64,000 bases of DNA from Streptomyces sp. NBC_00285 (GTDB taxonomy: Bacteria; Actinomycetota; Actinomycetes; Streptomycetales; Streptomycetaceae): positions 1,116,001 to 1,180,000 of the forward strand of contig NZ_CP108055.1 in NCBI RefSeq assembly GCF_036174265.1. Direction: 5' to 3'. Shown piece by piece: positions 31,147 to 54,115 of this stretch (position 1 is its first letter; each line of letters begins with the position of its first letter). Both the position numbers and the translations under genes were made by a program. Under the pieces are notes generated by a model. The model saw nothing but the letters and a program-made list of their open reading frames with translations, did no database searches and had not been told where the DNA came from.

Positions 31147-32319
31147 TCACGCCTCGCCACGGCTCCCGACCGGGAACGGCAGGCAGGTGCGCCGTGTGGA
31201 GTCGAGCGTGTTCGCGACGGCCTCCAGGTAGCCCGGGACCCGGAGCAGGAAGGCGTCGTGGCCGGCTTCCGAGGTGTGGTCGCGGTAGTGGGTGGGCGCG
31301 AGGCCGAGTGAGGTCAGGCGGGCCGACAGGTACGCGGTGTCCGACGCCCGGAAGAGCCGGTCGGAGTCGAAGCTGAAGAGGTGCACCTCGGGGGTGCGGG
31401 TGGCCGTCGGTACGGGGGCCGGCCGGCGGGCGAAGGCGTCGTAGCGGTCCATGGCGGCCGTCAGGCGCAGATAGCTGTTGGCGTCGAAGCGGGCGACGAA
31501 GCTGCGGGCCTGGTGTTCGAGGTAGCGCTCCACGGCGTAGGGGCCGTGGGCCGCGCCGCCCGGGCCGGCGGAGGGCTGGTGTCTGCGGCCGAACTTGGTC
31601 TCCAGGGAGCCCGGGGACATGTAGGTGAGGTGGGCGATCATGCGCGCGACGCCGAGGCCGTCGACGGGACCCGGGGCGCCGGGTTCGTCGGCGTAGTGGC
31701 CGTCGGCGAAGCGCGGGTCGGAGCGGATGGCGGCCCGGCCCGCGGCGTGGGCGGCGAGGGAGTCGGCGGACAGCCGGGCCCCGGTCGCGATGAGCAGGAA
31801 GCGCTCCGCGTCGCCGGGATGGCGCAGCAGCCACTCCAGTGCCTGCATGCCGCCGAGGGAGCCGCCCACCACCGCCCGCAGTGCGGGGCTGCCCAGGTGG
31901 CGCAGCAGGCCTCGGTGGACGGCCACCATGTCGCCCACGGTGATGTCGGGGAAGTCGGCGCCGAGGGGCCGGCCGGCCGGCGCCGGGCTCCAGGGTCCGG
32001 TGGTGCCCGCGCAACCGCCGAGGACGTTGGCGCAGACGACGTGCAGACGGTCCGTGTCGAGGGGGCGGCCGGGACCCACCATCTCCTCCCACCAGCCGGG
32101 GATGTCATCCGAACTGTGCCGGGTGACATGGGAGTTGCCGGTGAGGGCGTGACAGACGAAGACCGTGTTCGGCCGTTCCGGGTCGGGACGGCCGTACTCC
32201 TCGTAGGCGACCCGGACACCGGAGAGGATGCCGCCCGTCTCCAGCCGCAGGGGGCGCTCCGGAGGGAAGAGGACGGCGGTGCGCTGGTGGCGGCCGGCCG
32301 GGGCGGGGAATCCGTTCAT
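31147..32319 (-). CDS. metX: Homoserine O-acetyltransferase
   Basis: The 390-residue alpha/beta hydrolase transfers acetyl from acetyl-CoA to L-homoserine. Markers are VCHALTGNSHVT near residue 55, the nucleophile elbow VGGSLGGMQALEW with Ser154, and the C-terminal catalytic histidine in EAGHDAFLL. The ATG follows GGAGGAG and overlaps the C26 amidase stop by 4 bp. It is the last gene of the long leftward operon. Grouped with MetY (two genes upstream) it would make and use O-acetylhomoserine. That could serve plain homocysteine synthesis, but its place in a biosynthetic operon suggests supply of a product building block. Confidence 0.93.
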   Translation of the reverse strand: MNGFPAPAGRHQRTAVLFPPERPLRLETGGILSGVRVAYEEYGRPDPERPNTVFVCHALTGNSHVTRHSSDDIPGWWEEMVGPGRPLDTDRLHVVCANVLGGCAGTTGPWSPAPAGRPLGADFPDITVGDMVAVHRGLLRHLGSPALRAVVGGSLGGMQALEWLLRHPGDAERFLLIATGARLSADSLAAHAAGRAAIRSDPRFADGHYADEPGAPGPVDGLGVARMIAHLTYMSPGSLETKFGRRHQPSAGPGGAAHGPYAVERYLEHQARSFVARFDANSYLRLTAAMDRYDAFARRPAPVPTATRTPEVHLFSFDSDRLFRASDTAYLSARLTSLGLAPTHYRDHTSEAGHDAFLLRVPGYLEAVANTLDSTRRTCLPFPVGSRGEA

Positions 32320-33092
32320 CGCGCTCCTCCCCCGTGGCCCACGAGGTGGTTCGTCCACTGTTCGGCGCGCCCGCTCGCCCGGCGTGCCGCCGCCGCGCCG
32401 AAGCTCTCGAAGAGGCGACGGCAGACGGGGTCGGTGGCCGCGTACCACTCGGGGTGCCACTGCACGCCGAGCGCGAAGGTCCGGGCCCCGACGACGGACA
32501 GGGCCTCGATCACGCCGTCGGGGGCGGTGGCCTCGCTGCGGAGGCCTGGCGCGAGGGTGCCGACCGCCTGTCCGTGCAGGGAGTTGACCCGGGCCCGGTC
32601 GGCGCCGTCCAGCAGCCGTCGAAGCAGGCCGTCGTGGGCGAGGGTGACCTCGTGCGCGGGCCGGTACTGCTCGTCTCTGGACAGGGTGGGGTCCTCACGG
32701 TGGTCCGCGCAGTCGAGGGCGCGGAGGGTGCCGCCGTAGGCCACGTTGATCTCCTGGAGGCCGCGGCAGATGCCGAGCAGGGGCAGCCCTACGGCCACGG
32801 CCCGGCGGACCGCCGGGAGGGCGAGGGCGTCTCGGTCGGGGTCGAAGGGGCCGGGGCAGGGGGCCCCGCCGTAGCGTTCCGGGGCCACGTTGCTCTCGTG
32901 TCCGCCGAGGACGAGTCCGTCGCAGCGGGCGAGCAGTTCGTCGGGGAGTGGGCCGGGGCCCGGGAGCAGCACCACCGAGCAGTGGGCGACCTCTTCGAGC
33001 GCCGTGATGTAGGCGCGGCGGACGGCGGCGTGCGGGACGCCGTCCCAGGTCTCGGTCGCGCAGGCGAGTGCGACCAGCGGCCGGTTCGTCAT
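32316..33092 (-). CDS. Class I glutamine-amidotransferase-like gamma-glutamyl hydrolase (peptidase C26)
   Basis: The 258-residue protein has the C26 triad: nucleophile Cys109 in LLGICRGLQEINVAYGG, and the His-Glu pair in GVQWHPEW near the C-terminus. It resembles PuuD-type gamma-glutamyl-GABA hydrolases, with the extra loop (SNVAPERYGG) typical of the group. It would cleave a gamma-glutamyl amide in the cytosol. Lying between MetX and MetY with 4-bp overlaps on both sides, it may remove a gamma-glutamyl protecting group from a pathway intermediate; that role is inference. Confidence 0.88.
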   Translation of the reverse strand: MTNRPLVALACATETWDGVPHAAVRRAYITALEEVAHCSVVLLPGPGPLPDELLARCDGLVLGGHESNVAPERYGGAPCPGPFDPDRDALALPAVRRAVAVGLPLLGICRGLQEINVAYGGTLRALDCADHREDPTLSRDEQYRPAHEVTLAHDGLLRRLLDGADRARVNSLHGQAVGTLAPGLRSEATAPDGVIEALSVVGARTFALGVQWHPEWYAATDPVCRRLFESFGAAAARRASGRAEQWTNHLVGHGGGAR

Positions 33093-34468
33093 GCGTCCCG
33101 TGCTCCTTCGCCGAGTACTCCTTCGTATGGTGCTCCTTCGCCGAGTGCTCCCTCGATGTCGGCGAGCAGGTCGTCGATGTCCTCGATGCCGACGGCCAGG
33201 CGGATGGAGCCCTGGGTGACGCCGGCGGCCAGCTGGTCGGCCTCGGGGAGCTGGGCGTGGGTGGTGGAGGCGGGGTGGGTGGCCAGCGATCTGACGTCTC
33301 CGATGTTGGTGACGTGGGAGACCAGCCGGAGTGACTCGATGAAGCGGCAGCCCGCCTCCCGACCGCCCTCCAGCTCGAACTGCACGAGTGGGCCGCCGTT
33401 GTCCCCCATGTAGCGCTCGGTCAGCCGCGCCTCCTCGCCGTCGGCGAGCCCGGGATAGCGGACGGAGGCGACCCGCGGGTGCGCCTGGAGGTACTCGGCA
33501 ACCCGGCGGGCGTTCTCCCCGTGCGCCCGCATCCGCAGCGGCAACGTCTCCAGCCCCTGGAGCAGCAGCCAGGCGTTGAAGGGGCTGAGGCAGGGACCGA
33601 GGTCCCTGAGCAGGGTCTCGCGGGCCTTGAGGAGATAGGGCGAGCGGCCGAGCGGACTGTCGAGCTCCAGGCCGGTACGGGTCCAGACGACTCCCCCGTG
33701 CGCCGGGTCCGGTGTGGTGAGCAGGGGGTGGCGCTCGGCGTGCGCCTCCCAGTCGAAGCGACCTGAGTCCATGATCAGCCCGCCGAGCGTCGAGCCGTGG
33801 CCGCCGATGTACTTGGTCGCCGAGTAGACGACGATGTGGGCCCCGTACTCCATCGGCCGGCAGGTGTACGGCAGCATCGTGTTGTCCAGCACCAACGGCA
33901 CCCCGCACGCCTCGGCGAGTGCGGCGACCTCCTCGATCGGGAAGATCCGCAGCCGGGGGTTGGGCAGGGTCTCGCCGAACCAGCAGCGGGTGTTCTCGTC
34001 GCTCGCCTCGGCGAAGTTCTTCGGGTTGCCGGGGCTGACGTGGCGGACCTCGATGCCGAACCGGGCGAAGGTGTTGGCGAACAGGTTCCACGTGCCGCCG
34101 TACAACTCGTCGGAACTGACGATGTTGTCGCCCGCCTGGCACAGGTTCAGCAGCGCCAGCGCGATGGCGGCCTGTCCGGAGGCGACGGCGAGTCCGGCCG
34201 CCGCGCCGTCCACCGCGGCCATGCGCTCCTCCAGCACGTCGCAGGTCGGGTTGTTGAGACGGGTGTAGGCGTGGCCGTCCTGCTGGAGGTCGAAGATTCC
34301 GGCCGCCGCGGCGGTGCTGGGCAGTTCGAAGGCGGCGGTCTGGAAGATCGGGGTGACGACGGGTGGGGTGATGCCGAGGCGCCATTCGTAGCCGCCGTGG
34401 ATGGTGGCGGAGCGGGCCGTGCGGAACGCCTTGCGGGTGGTGGGGGCGGGAGCGTCGTGGTCCGGCAT
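33089..34468 (-). CDS. metY: O-acetylhomoserine sulfhydrylase-type PLP enzyme
   Basis: The 459-residue Cys/Met-metabolism PLP enzyme has YTRLNNPTCDVLEERMAAVDG, the cofactor-stacking ELYGGTW, the aspartate in VLDNTMLPY, and the aldimine lysine Lys219 in SATKYIGGHGST. It catalyses gamma-replacement of O-acetyl-L-homoserine, with sulfide in the standard reaction. Relatives in natural-product pathways accept carbon or nitrogen nucleophiles instead. The last ~20 residues contain an imperfect duplicated GEGAP/GEGAR stretch from a 30-bp DNA duplication (33101-33160) and look like a non-essential tail. The ATG at 34468 shares one base with the upstream stop. Confidence 0.93.
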   Translation of the reverse strand: MPDHDAPAPTTRKAFRTARSATIHGGYEWRLGITPPVVTPIFQTAAFELPSTAAAAGIFDLQQDGHAYTRLNNPTCDVLEERMAAVDGAAAGLAVASGQAAIALALLNLCQAGDNIVSSDELYGGTWNLFANTFARFGIEVRHVSPGNPKNFAEASDENTRCWFGETLPNPRLRIFPIEEVAALAEACGVPLVLDNTMLPYTCRPMEYGAHIVVYSATKYIGGHGSTLGGLIMDSGRFDWEAHAERHPLLTTPDPAHGGVVWTRTGLELDSPLGRSPYLLKARETLLRDLGPCLSPFNAWLLLQGLETLPLRMRAHGENARRVAEYLQAHPRVASVRYPGLADGEEARLTERYMGDNGGPLVQFELEGGREAGCRFIESLRLVSHVTNIGDVRSLATHPASTTHAQLPEADQLAAGVTQGSIRLAVGIEDIDDLLADIEGALGEGAPYEGVLGEGARDA

Positions 34469-35784
34469 CAGCGGTCTCCTCCGGAGGGGTCGGTACGTGG
34501 GCGCCGTGCCGTTCTGCCGAGCAGGGCAGCGAGCAGGGCGGTCAGCAGCAGGGCGGCGGGTATCGGGGCGAGCCCGGTCGACGACAGGTGCGGGGCCAGG
34601 ACCAGTACGGCGGCGGCCCACCAGACGGCGAGGTCGTCGCCGAGGACGAAGTCACGGAGCACTCGGCTGGGCGAGGGGCAGGCTTGGGGGTCTACCGGTG
34701 GGCGAGGGTGGCGTGGGCGGGGTACGCGCGCGTGAGGCAGGTCTCGGCGCGGCACGCGCGCGTGGATCAGGCGTCCATATGCGGTGAGGGCGAGCAGTAC
34801 GGTCACGCCGAGCAGGGTCGCGAGGGGGACACCGACCGCGTCCGAGGTGACGGCGGCGGCGCCTTGGGCTGTGAGCAGGACGGCGATCGCGGCTTTGACG
34901 GGGCGTTCGGGCAGCACGGTCAGAGGGCGGCGGGGTGCCGGACCTACGTCGGTGCGACGCGTCGGCGGGACGGTCTCGGGACCGAGCCCGGCAAGCCCGT
35001 TCGCGGGACCCCACCCCACCGGCCCGCCCTCAGAACCCGACCCTCGACCGGTCACCGGACGCTCCCCGAACGCACCCGGCGCAGGGCGGCACTCCGCCGA
35101 GCCGCCCGAACCGTCCCTCACCCGATCAGCCACCGGCCGACGCCCAGGCACACCGGCCCCGGTGCGGTCGCCCGCCGAACCGGCCTCCGAGCTCTGCCCC
35201 GCCCGACCGGCCCCTGGCCGAAGCCCAGGCACGCCGGTCGCAGCGCGGTGTCCCGCAAGGACAGTCTCGAACGGCCGTCCACCCAGGATCGACCCGGGGC
35301 GACGTCCCGTCAGGCCGGGCGTGATCGCCGCGGTCACCAGGAGCAGGGCCAGCGGCGGCAGCCACAGTGGCCGGGCGCCGGCCAGCGCCACGACCGCGGT
35401 CGCCAGGACCAGCGTCTCCATACCCGCTCGCAGGAGTGCGGCGCCGACCGCCGCACCTTCCCCGCGGACGGCGTCGTACACCGACGGCTCGTCCCGTGGC
35501 GGCACCGTCCCCAGCTCCCGGCGCGCGGCCCACACCAGCCACTGAAGGCCGGCCACGAGCACCACGATCCCGCCTGCCCTGACCGCCCAGCCGCCGGGCA
35601 GAACCGCGAGGACACCCAGCGCTCCCCCGGCCGACGCCACCAACGCCAGGCCCGGTAACAGCGCCGCCCTGACCGCCGTACCCCTTCCCGTCGAGGCGAC
35701 GGCGGCCACCGTGGTGCGCGCCTCCCTCGCCTCGACGGCGGCCAGCAGAGCGACGGCGACCAGCGCGGGCCAGACCGACGTCAC
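34468..35784 (-). CDS. Integral membrane protein, COG4280/GDT1-like, with hydrophilic insert
   Basis: The 438-residue protein starts VTSVWPALVAVALLAAVEAR, reminiscent of the GDT1/COG4280 membrane family, with paired hydrophobic segments through residue ~155. About 130 low-complexity hydrophilic residues rich in Gly, Pro and Arg follow (roughly positions 34905-35310), then four more membrane segments. GDT1-type proteins move cations; whether this one does is not shown, since the usual ExGD motif is not clear. Codon 43 is TTA (35656-35658), a rare bldA-dependent codon. Start GTG overlaps the upstream SDR stop by 4 bp. Confidence 0.6.
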   Translation of the reverse strand: MTSVWPALVAVALLAAVEAREARTTVAAVASTGRGTAVRAALLPGLALVASAGGALGVLAVLPGGWAVRAGGIVVLVAGLQWLVWAARRELGTVPPRDEPSVYDAVRGEGAAVGAALLRAGMETLVLATAVVALAGARPLWLPPLALLLVTAAITPGLTGRRPGSILGGRPFETVLAGHRAATGVPGLRPGAGRAGQSSEAGSAGDRTGAGVPGRRPVADRVRDGSGGSAECRPAPGAFGERPVTGRGSGSEGGPVGWGPANGLAGLGPETVPPTRRTDVGPAPRRPLTVLPERPVKAAIAVLLTAQGAAAVTSDAVGVPLATLLGVTVLLALTAYGRLIHARVPRRDLPHARVPRPRHPRPPVDPQACPSPSRVLRDFVLGDDLAVWWAAAVLVLAPHLSSTGLAPIPAALLLTALLAALLGRTARRPRTDPSGGDR

Positions 35785-36878
35785 CCCGCGTCGCCCGTCC
35801 GCGCGAGCGCCCGGGGCCGCCGGCCGGCGCGTTGCGCGAACCAGTGGGCCACCGCCGCGTCCAGGTACTCCGACCAGGGCGGACAGACGGTGACGGTTCC
35901 TGTCGGCGGCAGCACCCGGTCGTCCTCGAAGTAGGGCCGGTACACGCCGATCAGCCGGTCGAGGAGCGCCCGGTCGGGCATCGGGATGCCGCGCACCTGC
36001 CAGGCGTCCAGCGAGCGGCGCAGGAACTCCCAGCGGCGGAACGGCACGAGGGTGAGCTCGGGCAGTGGGGCGCGCCCGGCGGCCGCCCGCGCCCGGTCCA
36101 GCGCCTCGACGGCCCCGGTGACCAGTTCCCCCAGCCGGGGTGCGGCCGTTCCGGACGCCGCCACGACGTCGGTGACCGGGTCGCCGTTCGCCACCCGCCG
36201 CAGCAGAGCGGCCAGTTCGCCGGCGACCCAGTCGACGGGCACGATGTCGATCCGGCGGTCGCGGCCGCCCGGCAGCAGGGGTGGCTCGTGGCGTTCGATG
36301 AGCCCGAGCAGCGGATAGATGCCGTGGAAGCGGCTGATGGCCCCGGTGCGGCTGTGCCCGACGACGAGGCTGCACGAGAACACCACCGGGCACAGGTCCG
36401 CGTACTCGGACCGCAGCAGGCGTTCGGCCTCCGCCTTGGTGGCTTCGTAGGTGTTGCGGTACTCCCAGCCGTCGGTCGCCGTATAGGCGGAGGAGACGTA
36501 GACGAAGCGGGTGTCGGCGCTCAGCGCGCGGGCCAGTTCGGCGACGTTCCGGGTGACCTGGACGTTGCCGAGCCGGGCCGCCTGCAGGGACGCGGTCCAG
36601 CTGACGTTGGCCGCCGCGTGGACGACCACGGTCCGCCGCGCGGGGGTGAGTTCGCGTGCGAGGGCCTGGGTCGCCGGGCCGTCGGTGAGGTCACGGACGA
36701 CCGGACGGACGCGCGCCCGGACCGCCTCGGGGGCCCTGGCCAGGAAGGCGTCACGGGAGCGTTCGCCACTGAACACCCCGACCACCTCGGCCCAGGGCTC
36801 CCCGGCCGCGAGGAACTCGGCGAGTCCGCTGCCGACGGCGCCGCCGATGCCGGTGACCAGCAGTCGCGCGCCCGTCAC
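35781..36878 (-). CDS. SDR of the male-sterility/thioester-reductase type (NAD_binding_4)
   Basis: The 365-residue protein has the extended SDR nucleotide motif TGIGGAVGSG near residue 9 and HAAANVSWTASL. The catalytic pair is Tyr144 and Lys148 in NTYEATKAEAE, with SSAYTATDGWEY before it. The family reduces acyl-CoA or carrier-bound acyl thioesters to aldehydes or alcohols, or acts as an epimerase-like dehydrogenase. No carrier protein was seen in the operon, so the acyl donor is unknown. With the class III aminotransferase one gene away it could supply an aldehyde for transamination; this pairing is inference. GTG start at 36878 overlaps the SRPBCC stop. Confidence 0.8.
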   Translation of the reverse strand: MTGARLLVTGIGGAVGSGLAEFLAAGEPWAEVVGVFSGERSRDAFLARAPEAVRARVRPVVRDLTDGPATQALARELTPARRTVVVHAAANVSWTASLQAARLGNVQVTRNVAELARALSADTRFVYVSSAYTATDGWEYRNTYEATKAEAERLLRSEYADLCPVVFSCSLVVGHSRTGAISRFHGIYPLLGLIERHEPPLLPGGRDRRIDIVPVDWVAGELAALLRRVANGDPVTDVVAASGTAAPRLGELVTGAVEALDRARAAAGRAPLPELTLVPFRRWEFLRRSLDAWQVRGIPMPDRALLDRLIGVYRPYFEDDRVLPPTGTVTVCPPWSEYLDAAVAHWFAQRAGRRPRALARTGDAG

Positions 36879-37321
36879 GGCGACACCGGGGCGGGGCGGC
36901 GGTCGCGGATGGCGGCGAGCATGCTGCGGGAGTTGGACTCGATGGCCTGGACACCGATGGGGTCCAGGACCGCGGCGAGGGAGGGGATGCCGATGTCGAA
37001 CTCGATCTCCAGCACGACCCGCACACCGGTGGGCGTCTCGACGAGTTCCCAGAACCCGCGGAAGACCTCCAGATCACCCTCTGTCTGGTCGAAGTCGATC
37101 CGCCGCATGCTCGTGAACACATCGCGCTCGTCCCAGGTCAGCTCACTGCCGTTGAGCAGGACCCGCCACGAACTGAGCGCGGTGCCCTCGCCGCGTTCCA
37201 GGAAGCGGATGCCGAGGACGTCGTCCATGTAGCCCGCGTGCGCCTCGAAATCGCACAGTACGGTCCACACGTGCTCCAGTGGGGTGTCGTCGATGTCGAC
37301 CTCGGTACGGACTACGGGCAC
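36875..37321 (-). CDS. SRPBCC (polyketide cyclase/START-like) protein
   Basis: The 148-residue protein has the helix-grip pattern: a starting strand VVRTEVDIDDTPLEHVWTVL, a central antiparallel sheet with GFWELVETPTGVRVVLEIEF, and a long C-terminal helix (LDPIGVQAIESNSRSMLAAI). Such proteins bind hydrophobic ligands and include aromatase/cyclases and lyases; catalytic residues cannot be assigned. Its GTG start overlaps the aminotransferase stop by 10 bp and its stop overlaps the SDR start by 4 bp, so all three are tightly coupled. Confidence 0.8.
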   Translation of the reverse strand: MPVVRTEVDIDDTPLEHVWTVLCDFEAHAGYMDDVLGIRFLERGEGTALSSWRVLLNGSELTWDERDVFTSMRRIDFDQTEGDLEVFRGFWELVETPTGVRVVLEIEFDIGIPSLAAVLDPIGVQAIESNSRSMLAAIRDRRPAPVSP

Positions 37322-38562
37322 GGTGCGGCCTCTCTGTCGGCGGGTACGGCAAGCGTTTCCGGTACGGCGGTGACGGCGGCGGCGATCGCGTCGAGCCCCT
37401 CGTCGAGGTCGTCCTGGCCGATCACAGCGGGCGGGTAGACCCTCAGGACCCGCGGGTTGCTGAGGCAGAAGCTGAGCAGCACGCCGTGCTTGGCCGCCTC
37501 CAGGACGAGCTGTCCGGCCACGCCGGGCGAGGCGGTGTCGACGCCGATCATGAGTCCCTCGCCGCGCACTTCGCGGATGCGCGGGTCGTCGCGCAGCAGC
37601 TCGCCGAGCCGCTTGCGGGCGGACTCGCCGAGGCGCCGTACCTCGTCCAGGAACCCGTCCTGTCGTACGACGTCCACGACCGCGCACCCGACCCGCCCGG
37701 CCAGCGCGCCGCCCGCGAAGGAGGAGGCCAGCACCACCGGGTCGCCTGCCGCGCCGCCGATCCGGGTGCCGGAGTACATGACGGCGGCCATCGGGACCAG
37801 GCCGCCGCCGAGCACCTTGCCGGCCAGGAGCAGGTCGGGCGGGCAGTCCGAGGCCGAGCGCCAGAGGGTGCCGCAGCGGCCGAGGCCGGTCTGGATCTCG
37901 TCGAGGGCGAAGAGGGTGCCGGTCTCCTGGCACAGCGCGCGCAGGGCGGCGAGACGGTCCGGGTCGATGGGCAGCACTCCGCCCTCGCCCCGGACCGGTT
38001 CGGCGAAGAGGGCCGCGACCGTTCCGCCGGCGAGCACCTGCCTGGCCTGGTCCAGGTCTTCCGGGTCCAGGAAGTGGACCTTCGCCGCCAGGGGCAGCGG
38101 GGAGCGCACCGCGTAGGTGTCGGAAAGGTGCAGGGCGCCCGCGGTCTTGCCGTGGTAGGAGCCGCGCAGGGCGGCGAACTCGGTGCGGCCGGTGGACAGG
38201 GCGGCCATCTTCATCGCCATCTCGACCGCTTCCGCACCGCTGTTGGCGAAGGCGACCTGGTCGAGGCCGGCCGGGGCGATGCCGATCAGCGCCTCGGCGC
38301 ACCGGGTCGCCTCCGCGTTGCCGAGGACCTTCCCGGACAGGCCCATCAGGTCCAGCTGGTCCCGAGCGGCTGCGACGACCTCGGGGTGGCGGTGACCGAC
38401 CAGGTGGACGCCGAAGGAGCCGAGGTCCAGCCAGCGGCGGCCGGTGGTGTCGGTGATCCAGGCGCCCTGGGCCTCCTGTTCGCCGGCCAGCAGACCCGAC
38501 ATACGCAGCAGCAGGGCCTTGGAGCGGCCGAAGGCGGCGCCGTAACGCTCGACGAACCCCAT
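37312..38562 (-). CDS. Class III PLP aminotransferase
   Basis: The 416-residue aminotransferase has ANSGAEAVEMAMKMA for phosphate binding, RGSYHGKTAGAL, the Asp-Glu pair DEIQTGLGR (Asp221, Glu222) that holds the pyridine nitrogen, and Lys249 in LAGKVLGGG. It transfers amino groups to aldehydes or ketones, often at a terminal (omega) position, or handles gamma-amino acids such as ornithine. It lies directly before the SRPBCC and SDR genes, and with the SDR may install a primary amine. The ATG lies 3 bp after the upstream stop. Confidence 0.92.
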   Translation of the reverse strand: MGFVERYGAAFGRSKALLLRMSGLLAGEQEAQGAWITDTTGRRWLDLGSFGVHLVGHRHPEVVAAARDQLDLMGLSGKVLGNAEATRCAEALIGIAPAGLDQVAFANSGAEAVEMAMKMAALSTGRTEFAALRGSYHGKTAGALHLSDTYAVRSPLPLAAKVHFLDPEDLDQARQVLAGGTVAALFAEPVRGEGGVLPIDPDRLAALRALCQETGTLFALDEIQTGLGRCGTLWRSASDCPPDLLLAGKVLGGGLVPMAAVMYSGTRIGGAAGDPVVLASSFAGGALAGRVGCAVVDVVRQDGFLDEVRRLGESARKRLGELLRDDPRIREVRGEGLMIGVDTASPGVAGQLVLEAAKHGVLLSFCLSNPRVLRVYPPAVIGQDDLDEGLDAIAAAVTAVPETLAVPADREAAPCP

Positions 38563-38565
38563 GGC

Positions 38566-39096
38566 TCAGGCGTCCTTGAGGAAGGGTTCGAGGAACGCCG
38601 CGTCGGTGCCGGCGGCGGTGCACAGCTTGGACCAGTTGCGCAGGGCCCGCAGCACCTCGCTCTGGCCGCTCGCCACCAGGGGGTCGGGGATCTGTCCCGG
38701 GAAGGCCTCGCAGAGCGCGTTCCACAGGTCCCGCACTCCGGCGTCGTCGGCCAGTTCGCCGCCGAACTCCTGCTCCAGGTCGAAGAGTTGGACCAGCTCC
38801 GGGCCGGTCGCCGAGCAGACCTCGTGCAGTCCGTACTCCAGGGCGAGGGCCAGCTGGTGTCCCTCCCCCGCGGGTTCGGCGCCGGTCAGCCGGGTGTCGA
38901 TCTCGGAGAACAGCTCCAGCAGCCGGAGTTTGACGACCTGGCGCAGCTGCGGCTGGTCCGCGCCGCCGTCCAGGTCCTCGACGTAGGCCCGGCCGTCGAC
39001 GGACATCAGCCAGGCCGTGGTGGCCCAGGCCCGGACGGCGGTCTCGGGGGGCAGACCACGGCCGGCCCGCACGCCGGGGAAGAGGGCGAGTTCCAT
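38566..39096 (-). CDS. Unrecognised helical protein of the biosynthetic operon
   Basis: The 176-residue acidic, mostly helical protein matches no family known to me. Visible features are a hydrophobic N-terminus (MELALFPGVRAGRG), AVRAWATTAWLMSVDGRAYV, a long leucine-rich helix (VVKLRLLELFSEIDTRL), and a C-terminal half with regularly spaced leucines. There is no signal peptide or membrane segment. A heme-oxygenase-like or scaffold fold is possible but unproven. The ATG at 39096 follows AAGGAG at good spacing; an upstream TTG is less likely. Its position inside a coupled operon supports a pathway role. Confidence 0.75.
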   Translation of the reverse strand: MELALFPGVRAGRGLPPETAVRAWATTAWLMSVDGRAYVEDLDGGADQPQLRQVVKLRLLELFSEIDTRLTGAEPAGEGHQLALALEYGLHEVCSATGPELVQLFDLEQEFGGELADDAGVRDLWNALCEAFPGQIPDPLVASGQSEVLRALRNWSKLCTAAGTDAAFLEPFLKDA

Positions 39097-39125
39097 CAAA
39101 CTCCTTCAGCAGGTGGGGGTTCCGG

Positions 39126-41125: not shown

Positions 41126-41126
41126 G

Positions 41127-41669: not shown

Positions 41670-42232
41670 GGCTGGCAACTCCCTTGCAGGGAAAGGACGG
41701 TGGCGTGGATCGCGGTGCGGTAGGCGGCGAGGTCGCCACTGTTGTCGATCACGGTGTCCGGCTCGATCAGGTCCAGGCCGCGGGTCGATCCGTCGGCGCG
41801 GGTGAGGTCGGCGCGGTCGGCGAGACGGCTGAGGCGCAGTTCCTCCTCACAGGTGATCCGGAGGATCCGGAAGCCCAGTGCGCGCAGTGCCGGGGTGTCG
41901 ACGAAGGGGTCGCGGAGGTCGTCGTTGACCACCAGTCCGGCCGTGCAGTCGGCGAGCCGGGCGGCGAAGTCGTCAGCCAGGGCACGGGGGTTGAGGCGAC
42001 GGAGGTGGCCCGCGAGGTCCTCCATCAGGACCTGGTCCTGGGCGCCCGGGCGCAGGGGGGCGCCGGCGGCGGCGTAGACGCGGTCCTGGAGTTCGTACAG
42101 CGGGCGGGCCAGCGGGATGCGGGCGAAGCCGAGGCCGGCCTCGACGGCGTACTCCCGCAGGGTGACCGCGCAGGTCGACTTGCCGCTGCCGGAGTGTCCG
42201 ATCACCGCGATCCGCAGCTGACCTGGGCTCAT
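41666..42232 (-). CDS. Small P-loop kinase (nucleotide/CoA-kinase-like)
   Basis: The 188-residue protein has Walker A GHSGSGKST (residues 12-20), an arginine-rich lid region, and a late IDNSGDLAAYRTAIHATVLS like the dephospho-CoA kinase and deoxynucleotide kinase group (D-N-x-G-x-L). It probably phosphorylates a small molecule or nucleotide in the cytosol. No specific family was recognised. The ATG overlaps the HPr-kinase-like stop by 4 bp, and the gene precedes the second deaminase-like gene. Confidence 0.8.
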   Translation of the reverse strand: MSPGQLRIAVIGHSGSGKSTCAVTLREYAVEAGLGFARIPLARPLYELQDRVYAAAGAPLRPGAQDQVLMEDLAGHLRRLNPRALADDFAARLADCTAGLVVNDDLRDPFVDTPALRALGFRILRITCEEELRLSRLADRADLTRADGSTRGLDLIEPDTVIDNSGDLAAYRTAIHATVLSLQGSCQP

Positions 42233-45104: not shown

Positions 45105-46306
45105 CGGCCTGGCTCCAGTTCGGGCCGGGCGGCGACGACGTCCCGCAGGAAGCTGCGCTTGGAGTAGAAGGAGCGCTCCTTGGCCCAGCCGCGCTCGGCG
45201 AGGAACTCCCGCACCCACGCGTCGACCCGGTCCATCTCCGCGACGACCTCGCCCTCCTCGTGCGGGACGAGGTTGCGGGACCGCAGGTACTCGACCTCGC
45301 ACTGGGACAGCACCACGTCGGGTGCGTCCAGCAGGCGGCAGTGGTCGAAGAAGATGCCATAGATGTGCCCGGTCCGCACGGACTCGCACTGGACGTCGTA
45401 ACGGACCCGCCGAAAGGGGGGCAACGCCCGCACGGTCAGGCCGAGTTCATCCTTGAGGTAGTCGGCGTAGCCCTCTGGGGGCACGTCCACCTTGTGGGTC
45501 AGTTCCTCCCTGCGGGCGAAGGCGTCCTCGGCGAACCACTTCCGCTTGAGGATGTTCTTGCCGTCGGTGGAGGGGATGAAGGAGGCGTAGCCGCGTTCGG
45601 ACTCGGGACCGAGGACGTCGTGGAGGTGGTTGTCGTAGTACCAGATCTGGAAGTCCTCGCGGTACTCCGGCCGGCAGCCCGGCAGTTCGCCCGCCCTGAG
45701 CGCCCGCAGGACCTCCAGGCCGGCCTCCCAGATGTCCGGGGCCGGATCGAGGGTGTACTTGTACTCCAGCTCGGTGCCCTTGAAGTGGTTGCGGAAGTAG
45801 AGGTGGTGGTTGCCGACCATCAGTTCGTGATGCTGATGTGCCGTCAGCATCGGTTTCAGCCAGCGGAGTTCGTCCACCGGTCCATGGCCGACCGGCGCCT
45901 CGGTACTGCGCACGAAGCACGCGTCCTCGATGTGGGCGCGGATCTGCGCATAGGCGTGGTAGCCGCCGCCGGGGTGTTCGGAGAGGTAGCACAGGGGCAC
46001 CAGGGCCGAGCCGGCGGATCCGACCAGGGGCCGCAGTGCGGGACCCGCGAAGCCGTCCTGGAAGAGGTCCGCGCCCTCGACGGGAGCGCGGCCCAGCGGG
46101 TGTCCGTCGCTGGTGAGGGCGACCGCCTCGCAGGTGCCGAGGTCCGCCCAGTCGACGACCACGGTGGTGCTGGGCCGGGCCTCCTCCAGCGGGTCCACCC
46201 GGACCAGGACCAGCGGGTCGGCGTCCGCCCACGGCTTGCTGCCGTTCAGCAGGTGGACTCCCCCGAGTACGACCCAGGCCTGGCCGTCCCGTCGTTCAGC
46301 GCTCAT
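45101..46306 (-). CDS. CYTH-like (triphosphate tunnel) protein, function unknown
   Basis: The 401-residue protein has an N-terminal third (WVVLGGVHLLNGSKPWADAD) with no recognised family. From residue ~175, FKGTELEYKYTLDPAP carries the ExExK signature (Glu179, Glu181, Lys183) of the CYTH superfamily, which binds triphosphates with divalent metals in a beta tunnel. Later strands (FRRVRYDVQCESVRTGHIYG) fit the tunnel pattern. CYTH enzymes include adenylyl cyclases, thiamine-triphosphatases and polyphosphatases. Which applies is unknown. Its start overlaps the fusion-protein stop by 11 bp. Confidence 0.6.
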   Translation of the reverse strand: MSAERRDGQAWVVLGGVHLLNGSKPWADADPLVLVRVDPLEEARPSTTVVVDWADLGTCEAVALTSDGHPLGRAPVEGADLFQDGFAGPALRPLVGSAGSALVPLCYLSEHPGGGYHAYAQIRAHIEDACFVRSTEAPVGHGPVDELRWLKPMLTAHQHHELMVGNHHLYFRNHFKGTELEYKYTLDPAPDIWEAGLEVLRALRAGELPGCRPEYREDFQIWYYDNHLHDVLGPESERGYASFIPSTDGKNILKRKWFAEDAFARREELTHKVDVPPEGYADYLKDELGLTVRALPPFRRVRYDVQCESVRTGHIYGIFFDHCRLLDAPDVVLSQCEVEYLRSRNLVPHEEGEVVAEMDRVDAWVREFLAERGWAKERSFYSKRSFLRDVVAARPELEPGR

Positions 46307-48791
46307 CGTCGGTGCTCCTTCCGGCGGCGGTTCCGGCCACCGTGATGACCCCGTCGCTGATGACGGCCTCGCCGCCGTCGACCAGGGGTGCCAGGTCGTC
46401 CGCGACCAGGGCGGGGACCTTGGCCTCGCGCAGCAGGATGGCGAGGTGGCAGAGGACCGAACCCTCCTCGAAGACGAAGCCGGCCACCGAACCGATGAGG
46501 ACGGAGAGCACCGCGTAGGGGCGGCTCACCCGCACCACCGGCGGGGCGGGCATGGCCTGGATCTTCTCCAACAGGCGGGTGATCTCGGTGTGTTCGACGA
46601 CGTCCTTGCTGCGGTCCACGCTCACCGCGGGCCCCACCGAGAGCCGCCTCAACAGGTCGTCGTCGGCCAGCTTGAGCAGCGGTCCGCTCGCAGATCCTGC
46701 GGAGACCAGCGTGCCGCGCTCCCCCGACAGCACGTCCCCGGTCAGGAGCGAGTAGTCCACGAAGTAGGGCTCGCCGTCGGCGAACACCCACTCCACCGTG
46801 GCATCGCCGTACCGGTCGTGCATACGGCCGGTGAAGGCGGCCATGCGTGCCAGGTGCGGGACCAGCTCGGCCGGAGCGCCGTCCACGGCCTCCGCGCGGT
46901 CCTCCCCGCCCGCGTTCCGGACGAAGGAACGGGCGCCCGCCGTGCCGCGGTTGAGGGCGAGCAGTCCGTCGGGCGTGTACTCGACGAGCAGGTCGGTCCC
47001 GGACCGGCGGGTGATCAGGCCGAGTTCGCCGCGGATGAAGTCCCGTACGACGACGGCCTGTCGGCGGTCGGGCTGCGCGTCGGCGCGGGTGATCTCGCCG
47101 AGCCGGTCGGGCACCTGCTCCTTGGGGACGACGATCTGCCGCAGCGTGGCGCCGAGATCCAGGACGCATTCGCTGCCGGGGCCGGTGGCCAGCAGCGCGC
47201 GTACGTGGTCCCGGCCCTCGGCGGCGGCCAGGTCCCGGGCAGTGAAGCCGATCAGCCAGCCCGCGCCGACGGAGAGTCCCAGCTCCTCCGCCAGCCGGTG
47301 CGCGGGTCCTCGTTTGGCGGTGTATCCGGCGTACACCTCGGCGATGTCACCGAGCTGGGCACCGGCGGGCGGATCCTCGAAGTACAGCCGGCTCGACCAG
47401 ATCCCGGCTGCGGCGGGGCCTTCGTCGACGAGCCTGCGGGCGGTCACGGGACGTACCTGGACGAGGTGCAGCCCGGCCTCGTCGGCGGCCCACTCCACGT
47501 CCACGTCGCAGCCGCGCTCCTGTCGCAACTGGCGGCAGGTGTCGGCCAGTTCCGCCAGGAGCGGGTCGTCGATCCGCCCTCCGGGCGCGGCCGAGACGCG
47601 CCGGGGCACCGCCACTCCGGCGACCAGCTCTTCGGCCAGACCCTCGGTGTACTCGATCTCGACGGAGCCCTGACTCCCGTCGAGCCCGGTGAAGGCCACG
47701 CCGGCAAGCGTGGGCCGCACCAGCCGCTGGACGATCACCGCGAGCCGGGGCTCGGGGTCGAAGTCGCCCGCGCGCACCCGGGCCGCCACCGCCGAGCTCG
47801 CATAGTGGGAGCGCCAGCACTCCGCCACGGCCGCGATCACCCCGTCGGCCCCGCGCACGCCGAGCACACTGCGATGGACGCCGGCCAGGCTGCTGGTGCC
47901 GCTGTCCTCGGCGAGCCCGGAGGAACGGACCGCGAACTCGCCCTCCTCCGGGTCTCCGAACATGTCCTGCAGCCGGGCGGTGAGCAGCTCGCGCAGGTCC
48001 TGCGGCACGGTCAGCCCGGCCACCGCCGCCTCGATCCCGGCGGTGAGTTCGGTGAAGAAGGCACCGACCGTGGCCCGCATCTCCTCGAACAGGGCGCCGA
48101 GTTCGCCGCGTGCCTCACGATCGAGCGCCTGGGCCAGCTCCCCCGCGGGGACGGCGAAGGCGAGCGGCACCCGGTAGGTCCGTGAGGTCAGGGCGAGCGA
48201 GGCGAACTTGTGGCCGACCTCCGCCGGGTTCGCGACGGTGCCGAGGCCCGGCAGCCGTTGCCGGGACAGCTGACGGTCGAAGTCCTTGTGGATGTCGCTG
48301 GCCCGGGGTCCGACAGCGCCCTGGTATTTGCCGTCGTACAGCTCGATCTCGCCCTGCGGGCGCCACCACATCATCTGGCCGATGGTCATGCCCGGGTACA
48401 CCCGAACCTGGTTGACCGTGTAGAGCTGGAGGGTCCACTGACCCTCGTAGCCGATGTCCCCGAGGCTGGCGGAGAGATTGATGAACAGGCCGAGTCTCGC
48501 CACGGAGGAGCGGGCGGCGAAGGTCGGCGCGTAGTGGCGGCTGCCGAGCACCTCCTGGGTGTGCGCGAGGTAGAGCCGGCCGGGCTCCAGGACATAGCCC
48601 TCGTCGCCCATCTCGATGTCGACGCAGACGTTCTCGCGGCGCGGGTCGAGGGGCATCTCGGAGTAGACCCTGAGGCGGCTGCCGAGCCGGAAGTTGTAGC
48701 TGTTCGGATTGACCTGCTCGGGAGTGAACGGCTCGATGGTGATGCGGTCGTTCGTGCGTTCCCGCGCGATCTCGCTTCCGGTCAGGATCAT
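46296..48791 (-). CDS. Fusion of a dCTP-deaminase-like domain with a PEP-synthase/rifampin-phosphotransferase-like dikinase
   Basis: In this 831-residue protein, residues 1-~175 are dCTP-deaminase-like (PNSYNFRLGSRLRVY; ARSSVARLG at 93-101; VYPGMTIGQMMWW), but the catalytic glutamate position is glutamine (Gln122, WTLQLYTVN). Residues ~200-455 form a PPDK/ATP-grasp domain (FAVRSSGLAEDSG at 286-298; RPTLAGVAFTGLDGSQGSVE; LVQVRPVT). A middle region follows, then a C-terminal swivelling phosphohistidine domain with His782 in EGSVLCHLAILLREAKVPAL. There is no TIM-barrel PEP domain, so the layout matches rifampin phosphotransferase: ATP to a histidine, then to a substrate. ATG at 48791 has AAGGAG at 5 bp. 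Confidence 0.88.
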   Translation of the reverse strand: MILTGSEIARERTNDRITIEPFTPEQVNPNSYNFRLGSRLRVYSEMPLDPRRENVCVDIEMGDEGYVLEPGRLYLAHTQEVLGSRHYAPTFAARSSVARLGLFINLSASLGDIGYEGQWTLQLYTVNQVRVYPGMTIGQMMWWRPQGEIELYDGKYQGAVGPRASDIHKDFDRQLSRQRLPGLGTVANPAEVGHKFASLALTSRTYRVPLAFAVPAGELAQALDREARGELGALFEEMRATVGAFFTELTAGIEAAVAGLTVPQDLRELLTARLQDMFGDPEEGEFAVRSSGLAEDSGTSSLAGVHRSVLGVRGADGVIAAVAECWRSHYASSAVAARVRAGDFDPEPRLAVIVQRLVRPTLAGVAFTGLDGSQGSVEIEYTEGLAEELVAGVAVPRRVSAAPGGRIDDPLLAELADTCRQLRQERGCDVDVEWAADEAGLHLVQVRPVTARRLVDEGPAAAGIWSSRLYFEDPPAGAQLGDIAEVYAGYTAKRGPAHRLAEELGLSVGAGWLIGFTARDLAAAEGRDHVRALLATGPGSECVLDLGATLRQIVVPKEQVPDRLGEITRADAQPDRRQAVVVRDFIRGELGLITRRSGTDLLVEYTPDGLLALNRGTAGARSFVRNAGGEDRAEAVDGAPAELVPHLARMAAFTGRMHDRYGDATVEWVFADGEPYFVDYSLLTGDVLSGERGTLVSAGSASGPLLKLADDDLLRRLSVGPAVSVDRSKDVVEHTEITRLLEKIQAMPAPPVVRVSRPYAVLSVLIGSVAGFVFEEGSVLCHLAILLREAKVPALVADDLAPLVDGGEAVISDGVITVAGTAAGRSTDDER

Positions 48792-48881
48792 CAGCACTCC
48801 TTGCGGGAGGTGGGGGGTTCGGCGACGGCCCGATCGGCAGAGGGACGCGGCCGTGGAGAAGGAGGGGGTGGCGAGGTCGGG

Positions 48882-49040
48882 TCAGAGGGGGAAGTACCGC
48901 TGGGCCCTCGGGAGTTCGGTGGCCGGGCGGGCTTCGGCGATCTCGCCGTCGACGGGGACGGTGCCCTCCAGGATCCGGGCGGTCAACAAGACGATCGACT
49001 CAGGGTGGTGACGTTCCTGCTCGTGAGCGGTCAGTCGCAT
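48882..49040 (-). CDS. 52-residue protein heading the biosynthetic operon
   Basis: The product starts MRLTAHEQERHHPESIVLLT, continues through an acidic centre, and ends LPRAQRYFPL. It has good Streptomyces codon bias and lies 90 bp before the fusion gene and 31 bp after a predicted transcription start. No family was recognised. It could be a peptide substrate of the operon's enzymes, a small adaptor, or an enzyme subunit. The ribosome site is weak (GGGG about 10 bp upstream); a TTG at 49109 would overlap the -35 element and is rejected. Confidence 0.65.
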   Translation of the reverse strand: MRLTAHEQERHHPESIVLLTARILEGTVPVDGEIAEARPATELPRAQRYFPL

Positions 49041-49079
49041 GGATGCACGCCCCGTTCCGATCAGGAGTACTTCCTTCAG

Positions 49080-49109
49080 AAAGTATTTGGGTTCGGGAAT
49101 TGATGTCAA
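49080..49109 (-). promoter_or_regulatory. Promoter of the leftward biosynthetic operon
   Basis: On the minus strand TTGACA (49109-49104) is followed after 18 bp by TACTTT (49085-49080), a good match to the housekeeping sigma consensus. Transcription should start near 49073, inside the inverted-repeat arm GTACTTCCT. Confidence 0.7.
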
Positions 49110-49159
49110 CGATTCAACGGCATGCTCAGCAAATGTAACTTCGCGGAAACTTGGGCTAG

Positions 49160-49189
49160 TTGACAGCTACTCACCGACCGGAAAATAGT
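49160..49189 (+). promoter_or_regulatory. Promoter of the ATP-grasp-exporter pair
   Basis: TTGACA (49160-49165) is followed after 18 bp by AATAGT (49184-49189), giving a predicted start near 49196 and a 74-base leader before the ATG at 49270. Confidence 0.65.
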
Positions 49190-49269
49190 TCATCCAGGAA
49201 GTACCTAACTCCCCCGCACCTGACTCCCCGCACCGGCCTGCCCAGGTCCGGCGCAAGCGAGAGGTACAC

Positions 49270-50508
49270 ATGGCGCACATCGCGTTCCTGGAGACCAACA
49301 CCACCGGCAGCGGCTACGAGGCGATCGCCGCCGCCAAGCGTGCCGGCCACCGCGTCACCTTCGTCACCCGTGACATCGAGGCGTATCTGCTGCCGGGCCA
49401 ACTCCAGCTGGACACAAGCCTGCTGGACGATGTCGTAGGCACCGAGACCAACGATCCGGACCAGGTGGTCGCCGCGCTACGGCCCTTGCTGCCCGGCCTC
49501 GACGCGCTCATCTCGATCGGCGAGTGGCACATGATCAGCGGCGCGGAGTCGGCGCACCGTCTCGGCCTGCCGGGGCAGGCGCCCGACTCGGTGCGCGCCG
49601 CCCGGATCAAGTCCCTGCAGCGCCGGGCCTGTGCCGAGGCGGGCGTCCCGATCCCGGACTTCGCCGTGGCCCGCACCCCCGAGGAGGCGGCCGAGGCAGC
49701 CGTCGCCCAGGGCTTCCCGTGCATCGTCAAACCCGTTGATTACGGCGGCAGTTACGGCGTGCGGCTGTGTCACAGTGCCGACGAGGTGGCGGAGCAGGGC
49801 GTCTTCCTGCACTCGGTCACCCACAACCAGCGCGACCAGCGGATGTCCGAGGAGATCCTCGTCGAGGAGTATCTGGAGGGCCCCGAGATCAGTCTGGAGA
49901 CCCTCACCTACGACGGCGTCACCCGCTTCCTCGCCATCACCCAGAAGCTCACGGTGCCGCCGCCCTCGTTCTACGAGACCGGGCACGCGCTGCCCGCCGA
50001 CCTCGACCCCGAGCTCGAACTGGAATGCCGCCGGATCACCGTCGACGCCCTGAACGCCATCGGCTACGTCTTCGGCGCCGGGCACATAGAACTCAAGCTC
50101 ACCCCCGACGGGCCCAAACTGATCGAGGTCAACTGCCGTCCCGCGGGCGACCGGATCACCCATCTCCTCAACCGTGCGCTCGATGTCGACCCGACCGAGC
50201 TGCTGATCGAGATGTACCTGGGCACCCCGCCCGACCGGATTCCGGAGCCGGCACGGGGTGCGGCCATCGTCTTCCTGCCGAGCCCGGGCGGCCGGGTGGT
50301 CGCCGTCGAGGGGATCGAACGGGCGCACGCCGTGCCCGGGGTGGAGGAGGTCTCGCTGTACGTCGGCCCGGGCGACGTCCTGGCGCCGCCGACCAACAAC
50401 AACGACCGCCTGGGCTACGTCACCGCGACCGGCCCCGACAGCACCGCCGCGCTGGCGGCGGCCACCACCGCGGCCGGGTCGATCCTGGTCAAGCTGGAAG
50501 CGGAGTGA
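49270..50508 (+). CDS. ATP-grasp carboxylate-amine ligase
   Basis: The 412-residue ligase has a pre-ATP-grasp domain (IAFLETNTTGSGYEAIAAAK), the lysines FPCIVKPVDYGGSYGVRL, EEILVEEYLEGPEISLETLT, and the metal site IELKLTPDGPKLIEVNCRPA. It joins an acyl phosphate to an amine, typically making a dipeptide or amino-acid amide in the cytosol. The closest pattern is the carnosine-synthase/L-amino-acid-ligase group in small-molecule pathways. It is coupled by a 4-bp overlap to an MFS exporter, so the amide product may be the exported compound. The ATG follows a GAGAGG site. Confidence 0.92.
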   Translation: MAHIAFLETNTTGSGYEAIAAAKRAGHRVTFVTRDIEAYLLPGQLQLDTSLLDDVVGTETNDPDQVVAALRPLLPGLDALISIGEWHMISGAESAHRLGLPGQAPDSVRAARIKSLQRRACAEAGVPIPDFAVARTPEEAAEAAVAQGFPCIVKPVDYGGSYGVRLCHSADEVAEQGVFLHSVTHNQRDQRMSEEILVEEYLEGPEISLETLTYDGVTRFLAITQKLTVPPPSFYETGHALPADLDPELELECRRITVDALNAIGYVFGAGHIELKLTPDGPKLIEVNCRPAGDRITHLLNRALDVDPTELLIEMYLGTPPDRIPEPARGAAIVFLPSPGGRVVAVEGIERAHAVPGVEEVSLYVGPGDVLAPPTNNNDRLGYVTATGPDSTAALAAATTAAGSILVKLEAE

Positions 50509-51755
50509 GGCTTCGCCAGTACACCGACGGGATGACCAAGCCCATCGCCCTGGTGTGCCTCGGCATCTTCGTCAGTCGGCTCGGCGGCTTCTTCGTCCTC
50601 TTCCTGACCCTCGTCCTGGCCGAACGCGGCTACGGCACCCGGCAGATCACACTCGCCCTGATCGTGGTCGCGACCGCGGGCGTGCTCGGCGCCGCGGCGG
50701 CCGGCCCGGTGGCCGCCCGGGTCGGAGTGCGTACGGCCCTGCTGCTCACGGGCTCGGTCACCGCGGCGGGCGCGTTCCTGTGCGCCGCGCTCCAGGACTT
50801 CGCGCCCACCGTCGCCCTGGCCGCCGTGGTCTCCGCCGGTGTGCAGGCGTACTCCCCGCTGGCCCAGACCGTGGTGGGCACCTCGGCGACGGCCGAGCGC
50901 CGGGTGGCCATGTTCGCCGTGTACCGGCTGTGCCTGAACGTGGGCGCGAGCGTGGGCCCGGTCCTCGGCGCCCTGCTGCTGTCCTGGTCCCCGGCGGCCG
51001 TCCTGGTCGGCAACGGCCTGGCCGCCACCGTGGCGACCCTGCTCGTCCTGCCGCTGCCTCGCGCGACCCCCCGTTCCGTCCCGGGACCGGACCGGAGCCC
51101 GGTGGCGCAACGCTCAAGGGTGAGCGGCGAGTTCGCGGCGGCCGCCGTGGTGCTGAGCGTGGCCTCGCTGGTCTACGCCCAGCAGACCGGAGTGCTCGCC
51201 CTGGCGGTCCGTGAAGCGGACTATTCCACCGATGTCTACGGCTGGCTGCTCACCCTCAACGCTGTGGTGGTGATCCTGGTCGAGGTGCCCCTGTCGCGTT
51301 ACACAGGGCGCTGGCAACGGCGCACCCCGCTGATCCTCGGCACGGTCTTCGTCTGCGCCGGGTACGCGGTCAACCTCGCCGGGATCTCCCTGCCCGTCCT
51401 CATCATCGGGGTGCTGAGCTGGACCCTGGGCGAGGTGCTGATGACGCCGGTGGCCGCCGCCTTCGCGACCGAGGCGGCCCCGCCCTCCCAGGAGTCCGTA
51501 TACCTGTCCTTCCTCAGCATGTGCCAGACCGTCGGCTACGCGGTCGGCCCGGCCGCCGGGGTGTACGCCTACGGTCAGCACGCCGCGCTGCCCTGGCTGA
51601 TGTGCGCCGGCCTCATGGTGGTCAGTGCGCCCGCTTTGTACTACCTGCTCCCCCGGGCCCAGTGGCGGGCTCAGACCTCCGAGGATTGTCAAGTGGTCTG
51701 TACCGGTCTAGGCTCCGTCGACGCGGGAGATCCTCAGCAAGGGCGCCGGGGTTGA
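50505..51755 (+). CDS. MFS exporter coupled to the ATP-grasp ligase
   Basis: The 416-residue protein has about twelve membrane segments, with SRLGGFFVLFLTLVLAERGY at helix 1 and a long loop of ~25 residues between helices 6 and 7. Such transporters export antibiotics or small peptides. Start GTG at 50505 overlaps the ligase stop as GTGA. The last ~30 residues are hydrophilic and their codons contain the promoter of the next gene. Confidence 0.85.
   Translation: MRLRQYTDGMTKPIALVCLGIFVSRLGGFFVLFLTLVLAERGYGTRQITLALIVVATAGVLGAAAAGPVAARVGVRTALLLTGSVTAAGAFLCAALQDFAPTVALAAVVSAGVQAYSPLAQTVVGTSATAERRVAMFAVYRLCLNVGASVGPVLGALLLSWSPAAVLVGNGLAATVATLLVLPLPRATPRSVPGPDRSPVAQRSRVSGEFAAAAVVLSVASLVYAQQTGVLALAVREADYSTDVYGWLLTLNAVVVILVEVPLSRYTGRWQRRTPLILGTVFVCAGYAVNLAGISLPVLIIGVLSWTLGEVLMTPVAAAFATEAAPPSQESVYLSFLSMCQTVGYAVGPAAGVYAYGQHAALPWLMCAGLMVVSAPALYYLLPRAQWRAQTSEDCQVVCTGLGSVDAGDPQQGRRG
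51686..51714 (+). promoter_or_regulatory. Promoter with DasR-like site for the AmiC-like gene
   Basis: TTGTCA (51686-51691) and TAGGCT (51709-51714) are 17 bp apart. The spacer holds AGTGGTCTGTACCGGT (51692-51707), which matches the published DasR site AGTGGTCTAGACCACT at 12 of 16 positions. The promoter lies inside the last codons of the upstream MFS gene. GntR-type repression by DasR or a relative is possible. Confidence 0.5.
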
Positions 51756-52875: not shown

Positions 52876-52879
52876 GAGC

Positions 52880-53986: not shown

Positions 53987-54049
53987 CGTCACACTCCTCA
54001 TGCCACATGGTCGCGTCGGGACTTCAGCCTTGGCGTCGATCACCTCGGC

Positions 54050-54107: not shown

Positions 54108-54115
54108 GAGATTCC

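Follow-up and report, generated by a model that had tools for sequence, protein, structure and literature searches.

A 64,000-nucleotide stretch of the Streptomyces sp. NBC_00285 genome (contig NZ_CP108055.1, positions 1,116,001 to 1,180,000; hereafter the window, to which all coordinates refer) contains a conserved biosynthetic-type unit at 31147-53329, and its product is probably a small, exported amino-acid compound bearing a rare phosphorus-nitrogen (P-N) bond. The unit is made up of sixteen leftward genes (A to P), a divergent ligase-exporter pair (Q and R), a gene encoding a UrtA-like protein and a MarR-family regulator gene. By annotation and gene order, it appears to be an uncharacterized relative of the phaseolotoxin Pht cluster, with which it shares much of the core toolkit. 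What it adds to that toolkit is MetX, a peptidase C26 and MetY. A literature search, with most subscription papers outside its reach, found no published description of the locus, and it returned no paper on DUF6001 or DUF6031, the families of proteins I and H.

RESULTS

Extent of the locus. Genes A to P, all on the minus strand of the 10.3-Mb host genome at 31147-48791, were called from open frames together with codon-position GC, giving 16 genes where a preliminary description made from the sequence alone had counted 17. With the starts used here, overlaps of 4 to 16 bases are found at 11 of the 15 leftward junctions, in line with its account of mostly overlapping genes; an alternative in-frame ATG for L, 15 bases upstream, would bring the overlaps to 12 of 15. 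Gene D (34468-35784) was missed by codon-position GC; it encodes a membrane protein with eight hydrophobic segments that falls in no family above a curated cut-off and matches at 48-63% identity in all three close relatives. The divergent pair described earlier was recovered on the plus strand at 49270-51755. Q (49270-50508) is an ATP-grasp L-amino acid ligase of the LAL_C2 type (PF18603, E 7.6e-24; PF13535, E 6.5e-19) with 90-91% identity in the three close relatives, and R (50505-51755) is a major facilitator superfamily (MFS) exporter (PF07690, E 2.6e-31; 84-87% in the same three). The proposal of a single unit held, with the gene set kept in three other genomes, and its boundary had to be moved. 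The UrtA-like ligand-binding protein (51814-52875, plus strand; PF13458, E 2.6e-71; 88-90% identity; no leader peptide visible) and the MarR-family regulator (52880-53329, minus strand; PF12802, E 2.9e-14; 73-79%) both lie beside R in 3/3 close relatives, and the unit thus ends at 53329, about 1.6 kb beyond the end first given.

Conservation and co-occurrence. The whole of A to R is kept in S. prunicolor, Streptomyces sp. AC550_RSS872 and Actinobacteria bacterium OK074 at 71-95% identity, D excepted (48-63%). An alignment of P served as bait (homologous P proteins listed: the best 120 of 167), and a species-genome collection was scanned with two peptide patterns, both in the part of P that resembles pyruvate phosphate dikinase (PPDK); given that only these two patterns were used, the 44 loci obtained are a lower bound. 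At least 44 loci carry this PPDK part, of which 34 are actinobacterial and the rest come from Variovorax, Albitalea, Roseobacter, other proteobacteria, Paenibacillus and a Chloroflexi metagenome-assembled genome (MAG). Within flanks of up to 10 kb, some cut by contig ends, and with the three close relatives counted among the 44, the PPDK part has as neighbors L and P1 (42 loci each), O (40), K (39), N (32), M (30), I and H (25 each) and F (23), followed by the rarer Q (20), G (12, two of them weak), J (10), E (8), R (4), B and C (1 each) and A (0). The full set of K, P1, P2, O and L is present in 38 of the 44. All ten loci with J also hold G, H and I, and, after L012 and L048 were extended, E and F as well. 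A second bait, DUF6001, led to 10 distinct places in nine genomes, some of which also underlie the 44 loci; all 10 have H and further genes of the cluster within about 4 kb. Of 392 genomes from the genus, 7 contain DUF6001. The core genes travel together well beyond Streptomyces. The association that the preliminary description had suggested looking for, of the fusion gene with the CYTH-like, HPr-kinase-like and nucleotidyltransferase-like genes (O, M and I), was present, and the scattered genomic contexts it had named as the contrary outcome were not seen for the core genes across the at least 44 loci. OK074 also carries a second locus of the family (L012, L060), in which no A, B or C was seen and a PhyH-type oxygenase, an uncharacterized 447-amino-acid protein and an MFS gene take the place that D, MetY, the amidase and MetX have in the window.

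The phosphate and nucleotide core. Domain searches and predicted folds bore out the earlier count of seven phosphate- or nucleotide-related proteins (P, O, N, M, L, K and I). P (46296-48791) fuses a Gln-type dCTP-deaminase (DCD)-fold domain (P1; PF22769, E 1.3e-36) to a PPDK-type ATP-grasp and phosphohistidine swivel part (P2; PF01326, E 1.3e-33; PF00391, E 2.5e-6). The swivel His782 is invariant in 21/21 aligned sequences and is kept in the P2 frames, in 44 of 47 by pattern and in the remaining 3 by eye (one of the 47 is a duplicate). K (41127-41669; PF22769, E 7.5e-24) is a second DCD-fold protein, with a WTLE motif. K-type members carry Glu in 41/41 cases in the fetched loci, whereas P1 carries Gln in 30/30 fused and 12/14 separate copies (5 of the 12 by eye). 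Adjacent Glu-type and Gln-type genes of this fold were also seen in other clusters, on plasmids of Rhizobium etli Mim1 (L077, 12004-13033) and Streptomyces sp. NBC_00239 (L078, 11444-12525), beside phosphodiesterase, NUDIX, methyltransferase or tRNA-ligase-like genes, and the Glu/Gln pair may be a general module.

N (43254-45104) belongs to the type I phosphodiesterase/nucleotide pyrophosphatase superfamily (PF01663, E 4.2e-21) with conserved PNCQTPPS and DHG blocks. For I (39126-40142), the predicted structure and an invariant SS...G...SDxD pattern lead us to propose a nucleotidyltransferase-type fold for DUF6001. N and I share one reading frame of 901-1020 amino acids in five loci (L007, L010, L014, L018 and L019), which links the phosphodiesterase to the nucleotidyltransferase. 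We likewise propose from its predicted structure that O (45101-46306), a protein without a Pfam family, has a C-terminal CYTH/triphosphate-tunnel domain, with an ExExK motif. M (42229-43269) is an HPr-kinase-related P-loop protein (TIGR04355, 36 bits, below the cut-off of 200) with a conserved KGAGKTTT, and L (41666-42232; in-frame ATG at 42232) is a small P-loop kinase-like protein with a conserved Walker A and AAA/CoaE-like matches under cut-offs.

Comparison with the Pht cluster. In the excerpted annotation (PMC3927611), the Pht cluster opens with hypothetical phtD and phtE, ornithine aminotransferase phtF, hypothetical phtG and desaturases phtH and desI, continues with dCTP deaminases phtJ and phtK, PPDK phtL and hypothetical phtM and phtN/O, and ends with HAD phtP, amtA, phtQ, adenylylsulfate (APS) kinase phtS, phtT and L-amino acid ligase phtU. 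That annotation and the window have in common two dCTP-deaminase-type proteins, a PPDK-type protein, a desaturase-type protein, a class III aminotransferase, a kinase and an L-amino acid ligase. In the window, these Pht-type marks are P with His782, the DCD-fold pair (K and P1), G (37312-38562; PF00202, E 6.1e-78), a class III aminotransferase of ArgD/ornithine type whose best NCBIfam models are ArgD-type and under cut-offs, J (40142-41125; PF00487, E 3.5e-42), a membrane desaturase/hydroxylase-type di-iron enzyme with conserved His clusters (NF041365 GntB, 137 bits, below the cut-off of 380), and Q (PF18603/PF13535). Seven proteobacterial loci (three Variovorax, Albitalea, a Rhodobacteraceae MAG and two Pseudomonas) have the order I-H-G-F-E-J-K-P1-P2-O followed by M, L and N in varying order; five named functions fall in matching places of the excerpted Pht table, and the order is largely that of Pht. 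The loci from two Pseudomonas genomes (L064-L067) carry a Pht-like set, I-H-G-F-E-J-K-P1-P2-O-O-M-L-N, with an ornithine/arginine decarboxylase-type gene alongside and no Q-type ligase match within the 35-37 kb fetched. Two PPDK relatives, >90% identical, represent groups of 154 and 59 sequences that the source labels Pseudomonas syringae.

Relative to the same annotation, the window alone has the DCD-PPDK fusion, MetX-C26-MetY, the UrtA-like protein and MarR. Pht is listed with two desaturases and the window has one; two ATP-grasp ligases are reported for Pht in the portion seen of PMC4530439, and the window has only Q. The earlier statement that no characterized pathway has this gene set was thus too broad, given that the Pht cluster as annotated lists much of it. 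The statement holds for the MetX-C26-MetY addition and the product of the locus, for which we know of no characterized counterpart.

The MetX-amidase-MetY addition. A (31147-32319) is a MetX homoserine O-acyltransferase (NF001209, 384 bits, cut-off 331; TIGR01392, 363 bits, below the cut-off of 500), B (32316-33092) is a peptidase C26/gamma-glutamyl hydrolase-like, PuuD-like amidase (PF07722, E 2.6e-51; NF008471, 169 bits, below the cut-off of 266), and C (33089-34468) is a pyridoxal phosphate (PLP) enzyme of the MetY, O-acetylhomoserine sulfhydrylase family (TIGR01326, 514 bits, cut-off 495). A search at E up to 1e-20 found no MetX-family match in this genome other than A, and C is the only above-cut-off MetY match (TIGR01326), so a dedicated role for both in the cluster fits; these copies may also serve methionine synthesis. 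Of 61 genomes in the genus, 20 have a MetX-family match (this one included; 3 of the 20 by partial matches only), and OK074 has a second, higher-scoring MetX elsewhere. The close relatives' A, B and C lie beyond the 10-kb flank and were found on extending it. The addition recurs in part in the distant genome of Roseobacter sp. H9, where B and C adjoin J at the core.

Other genes and the control region. E (35781-36878) is a short-chain dehydrogenase/reductase (SDR) with an acyl/thioester-reductase-type NAD_binding_4 domain (PF07993, E 5.9e-26), F (36875-37321) is an SRPBCC/polyketide-cyclase-fold protein (PF03364, E 2.1e-17), and H (38566-39096) is DUF6031 (PF19496, E 2.1e-77). Together with J, G, A, B and C, the domains of E and F match those first assigned to them. 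Polyketide synthase, nonribosomal peptide synthetase, terpene synthase and radical SAM domains were absent from the 18 locus proteins (Pfam, E up to 0.05), and the phosphoenolpyruvate (PEP) mutase domain that marks phosphonate pathways was absent from the 20 proteins scanned, in line with the absences claimed before. The 478-base divergent control region (48792-49269) holds two TTGACA-type promoter-like sites back to back, against a shuffle mean of 0.1, and inverted-repeat arms (49067-49088 and 49183-49204, 77% complementary) overlap the second hexamers of these sites; similar TTGAC cores were seen by eye in three relatives.

The UrtA-like protein is a probable sensor. Across 51814-59176, the UrtA-like and MarR genes of the cluster adjoin a second MarR gene and a urea-type ATP-binding cassette transport operon; identity is 46% between the two MarR proteins and 29% between the two binding proteins. 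In Streptomyces sp. AC550_RSS872, the urea-type operon lies on the MetX side instead. Outside the cluster, 26059-26673 encodes an Mrr-type restriction endonuclease.

DISCUSSION

We consider it reasonably likely that the locus encodes a Pht-like pathway whose product, an amino acid or dipeptide with a P-N (phosphoramidate) bond and a side chain derived from homoserine, is small, exported and acts as an antimetabolite. What the analysis shows is the gene content, the folds predicted for O and I, the motifs and their conservation, the co-occurrence of the genes, the N-I fusion and the gene order; from these we infer every chemical step and the product. P2 would move a phosphate of ATP through its swivel His onto nitrogen, creating the P-N bond in the manner of Campylobacter glutamine N-phosphorylation and of the proposal for PhtL. 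The P-N unit would then be borne on a nucleotide, with I adding the nucleotidyl group, the K/P1 pair binding or trimming nucleotides, O handling tri- or polyphosphate and L and M phosphorylating; later, N would cleave the phosphodiester of the nucleotide conjugate. G, E and J with F would shape an amine or side chain common to phaseolotoxin-type loci, and A and C would build a C4 unit from O-acylhomoserine by gamma-substitution, with B removing a gamma-glutamyl group. Finally, ligation of the warhead to an amino acid would fall to Q and export of the product to R, under regulation by the UrtA-like protein and MarR.

Known P-N systems offer parallels to this scheme. The glutamine kinase of Campylobacter jejuni has a PPDK-like layout. 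The O-methyl phosphoramidate pathway of that organism starts with glutamine N-phosphorylation and has nucleotide-bound phosphoramidate intermediates, according to the section available of PMC6429109, and the chemistry proposed here resembles it in both amide N-phosphorylation and nucleotide-bound phosphoramidates. The C. jejuni pathway differs in that the window unit has no capsule genes, and B scored 28 bits against the gamma-glutamyl-CDP-amidate hydrolase model NF045546, whose cut-off is 250. For phaseolotoxin, PhtL (PPDK) has been proposed as the maker of the P-N bonds; the accessible part of PMC4530439 reports that deletion of phtL abolishes the toxin while a peptide by-product remains and that deletion of phtQ leaves phosphosulfamate ornithine, and names PhtL as homologous to agnD1 and agnD2 of the agrocin 84 agn cluster, which places PhtL homologues in a second phosphoramidate pathway. 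PhtB was modeled as CYTH-like at low confidence (excerpt of PMC5453526).

Several observations weigh against this scheme. The kinship with Pht is drawn from annotation and gene order, not from sequence; 4 of the 10 Pht genes compared are "hypothetical" in the excerpted table, and phtH is annotated there as a desaturase where the seven proteobacterial loci carry the SDR E. The window itself has the order J-I-H-G-F-E, with K and L between J and M-N-O-P, so that the kept runs are only I-H-G-F-E and P1-P2-O, and its P2 is only 30-31% identical to the Pseudomonas-group PPDKs. APS kinase, sulfotransferase and HAD (phtP) domains were absent from the 20 proteins scanned (Pfam), with L a P-loop kinase of unclear type, which leaves a phaseolotoxin-type sulfamate unsupported. 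The roles given to O, L and M are tentative. Finally, J is missing from 34 of the 44 loci, and B and C are each present in 1 of 44 within the flanks, making the last three stages, from the shaping of the amine or side chain onward, lineage-specific.

Two alternatives keep the P-N bond and change what carries it. We think it unlikely that the product is a Streptomyces phosphosulfoximine, an N-phosphono methionine sulfoximine peptide for which MetX and MetY would supply the methionine skeleton, J would oxidize the sulfur, the P-N core would add the N-phosphate and Q would add an amino acid. The position of A as the genome's only MetX-family match and of C as its only above-cut-off MetY would suit such a product, yet the locus has no gene specific for a sulfoximine, and the known compound, a tripeptide, sits poorly with a single ligase. 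Furthermore, some loci in which MetX and MetY were not seen still carry J, G and E, so J is not tied to sulfur. P-N phosphosulfoximines are recorded from a Streptomyces sp. in the portion seen of PMC6429109, and sulphostin is a Streptomyces compound whose biosynthesis is described as wholly unknown as of 2021 in the excerpt of PMC9113183. Both are thus P-N amino-acid compounds from the genus of the window, and our literature search found no gene cluster for either. In our judgment, it is distinctly unlikely that the product carries a phosphosulfamate on ornithine, like phaseolotoxin or sulphostin, and that MetX and MetY were recruited for sulfur supply alone. The Pht-like gene order of the proteobacterial relatives speaks for it, as does the origin of sulphostin in Streptomyces, whereas no APS kinase, sulfotransferase, amidinotransferase or ornithine carbamoyltransferase (OTCase) domain was present among the 20 proteins scanned. 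For amidinotransferase (amtA) and OTCase (argK), the absence extends to 30 scanned proteins, the rest of the genome not having been searched.

The several nucleotide-type folds of the locus, and the adjacent Glu/Gln deaminase-fold genes in other clusters on Rhizobium and Streptomyces plasmids, could point to a nucleoside or nucleotide antibiotic that retains a pyrimidine on which the deaminase-fold pair, the kinases and the nucleotidyltransferase act. We regard this as quite improbable: no glycosyltransferase, nucleoside phosphorylase or base-modifying enzyme, the deaminase folds aside, was present among the proteins scanned, and the Pht annotation too lists two dCTP deaminases, yet phaseolotoxin contains no nucleoside. 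Anti-phage systems include nucleotidyltransferases and dCTP deaminases, which would make a defense or housekeeping island conceivable. When 10 of the 18 proteins were scanned against the PADLOC models, one weak match was returned (mad8 on L, 14 bits, E 0.0059), and the exporter, ligase and PLP enzymes, together with the limited occurrence of DUF6001 in the genus, suit specialized biosynthesis better, so that such an island seems very remote.

In summary, our analysis ties this Streptomyces locus and 44 relatives to P-N chemistry of the phaseolotoxin/sulphostin kind, whose bond formation in phaseolotoxin was called poorly understood in 2015 (available text of PMC4530439). It adds proposed folds for DUF6001 and O and a compact enzyme set that is testable in vitro. 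A more specific version of the Pht-like scheme, which we consider less likely than not, has the P-N unit held on a nucleotide carrier by an obligate DCD pair, one member with a catalytic Glu and the other with a non-catalytic Gln and fused to PPDK, then freed by the phosphodiesterase and set by the MetY-type enzyme on the gamma carbon of O-acylhomoserine, to yield an undescribed P-N-linked C4 amino acid. If true, this would represent a distinct biosynthetic logic and a new type of P-N amino acid. In the lineage of this locus, the amino acid portion of the product has probably been rebuilt from homoserine.

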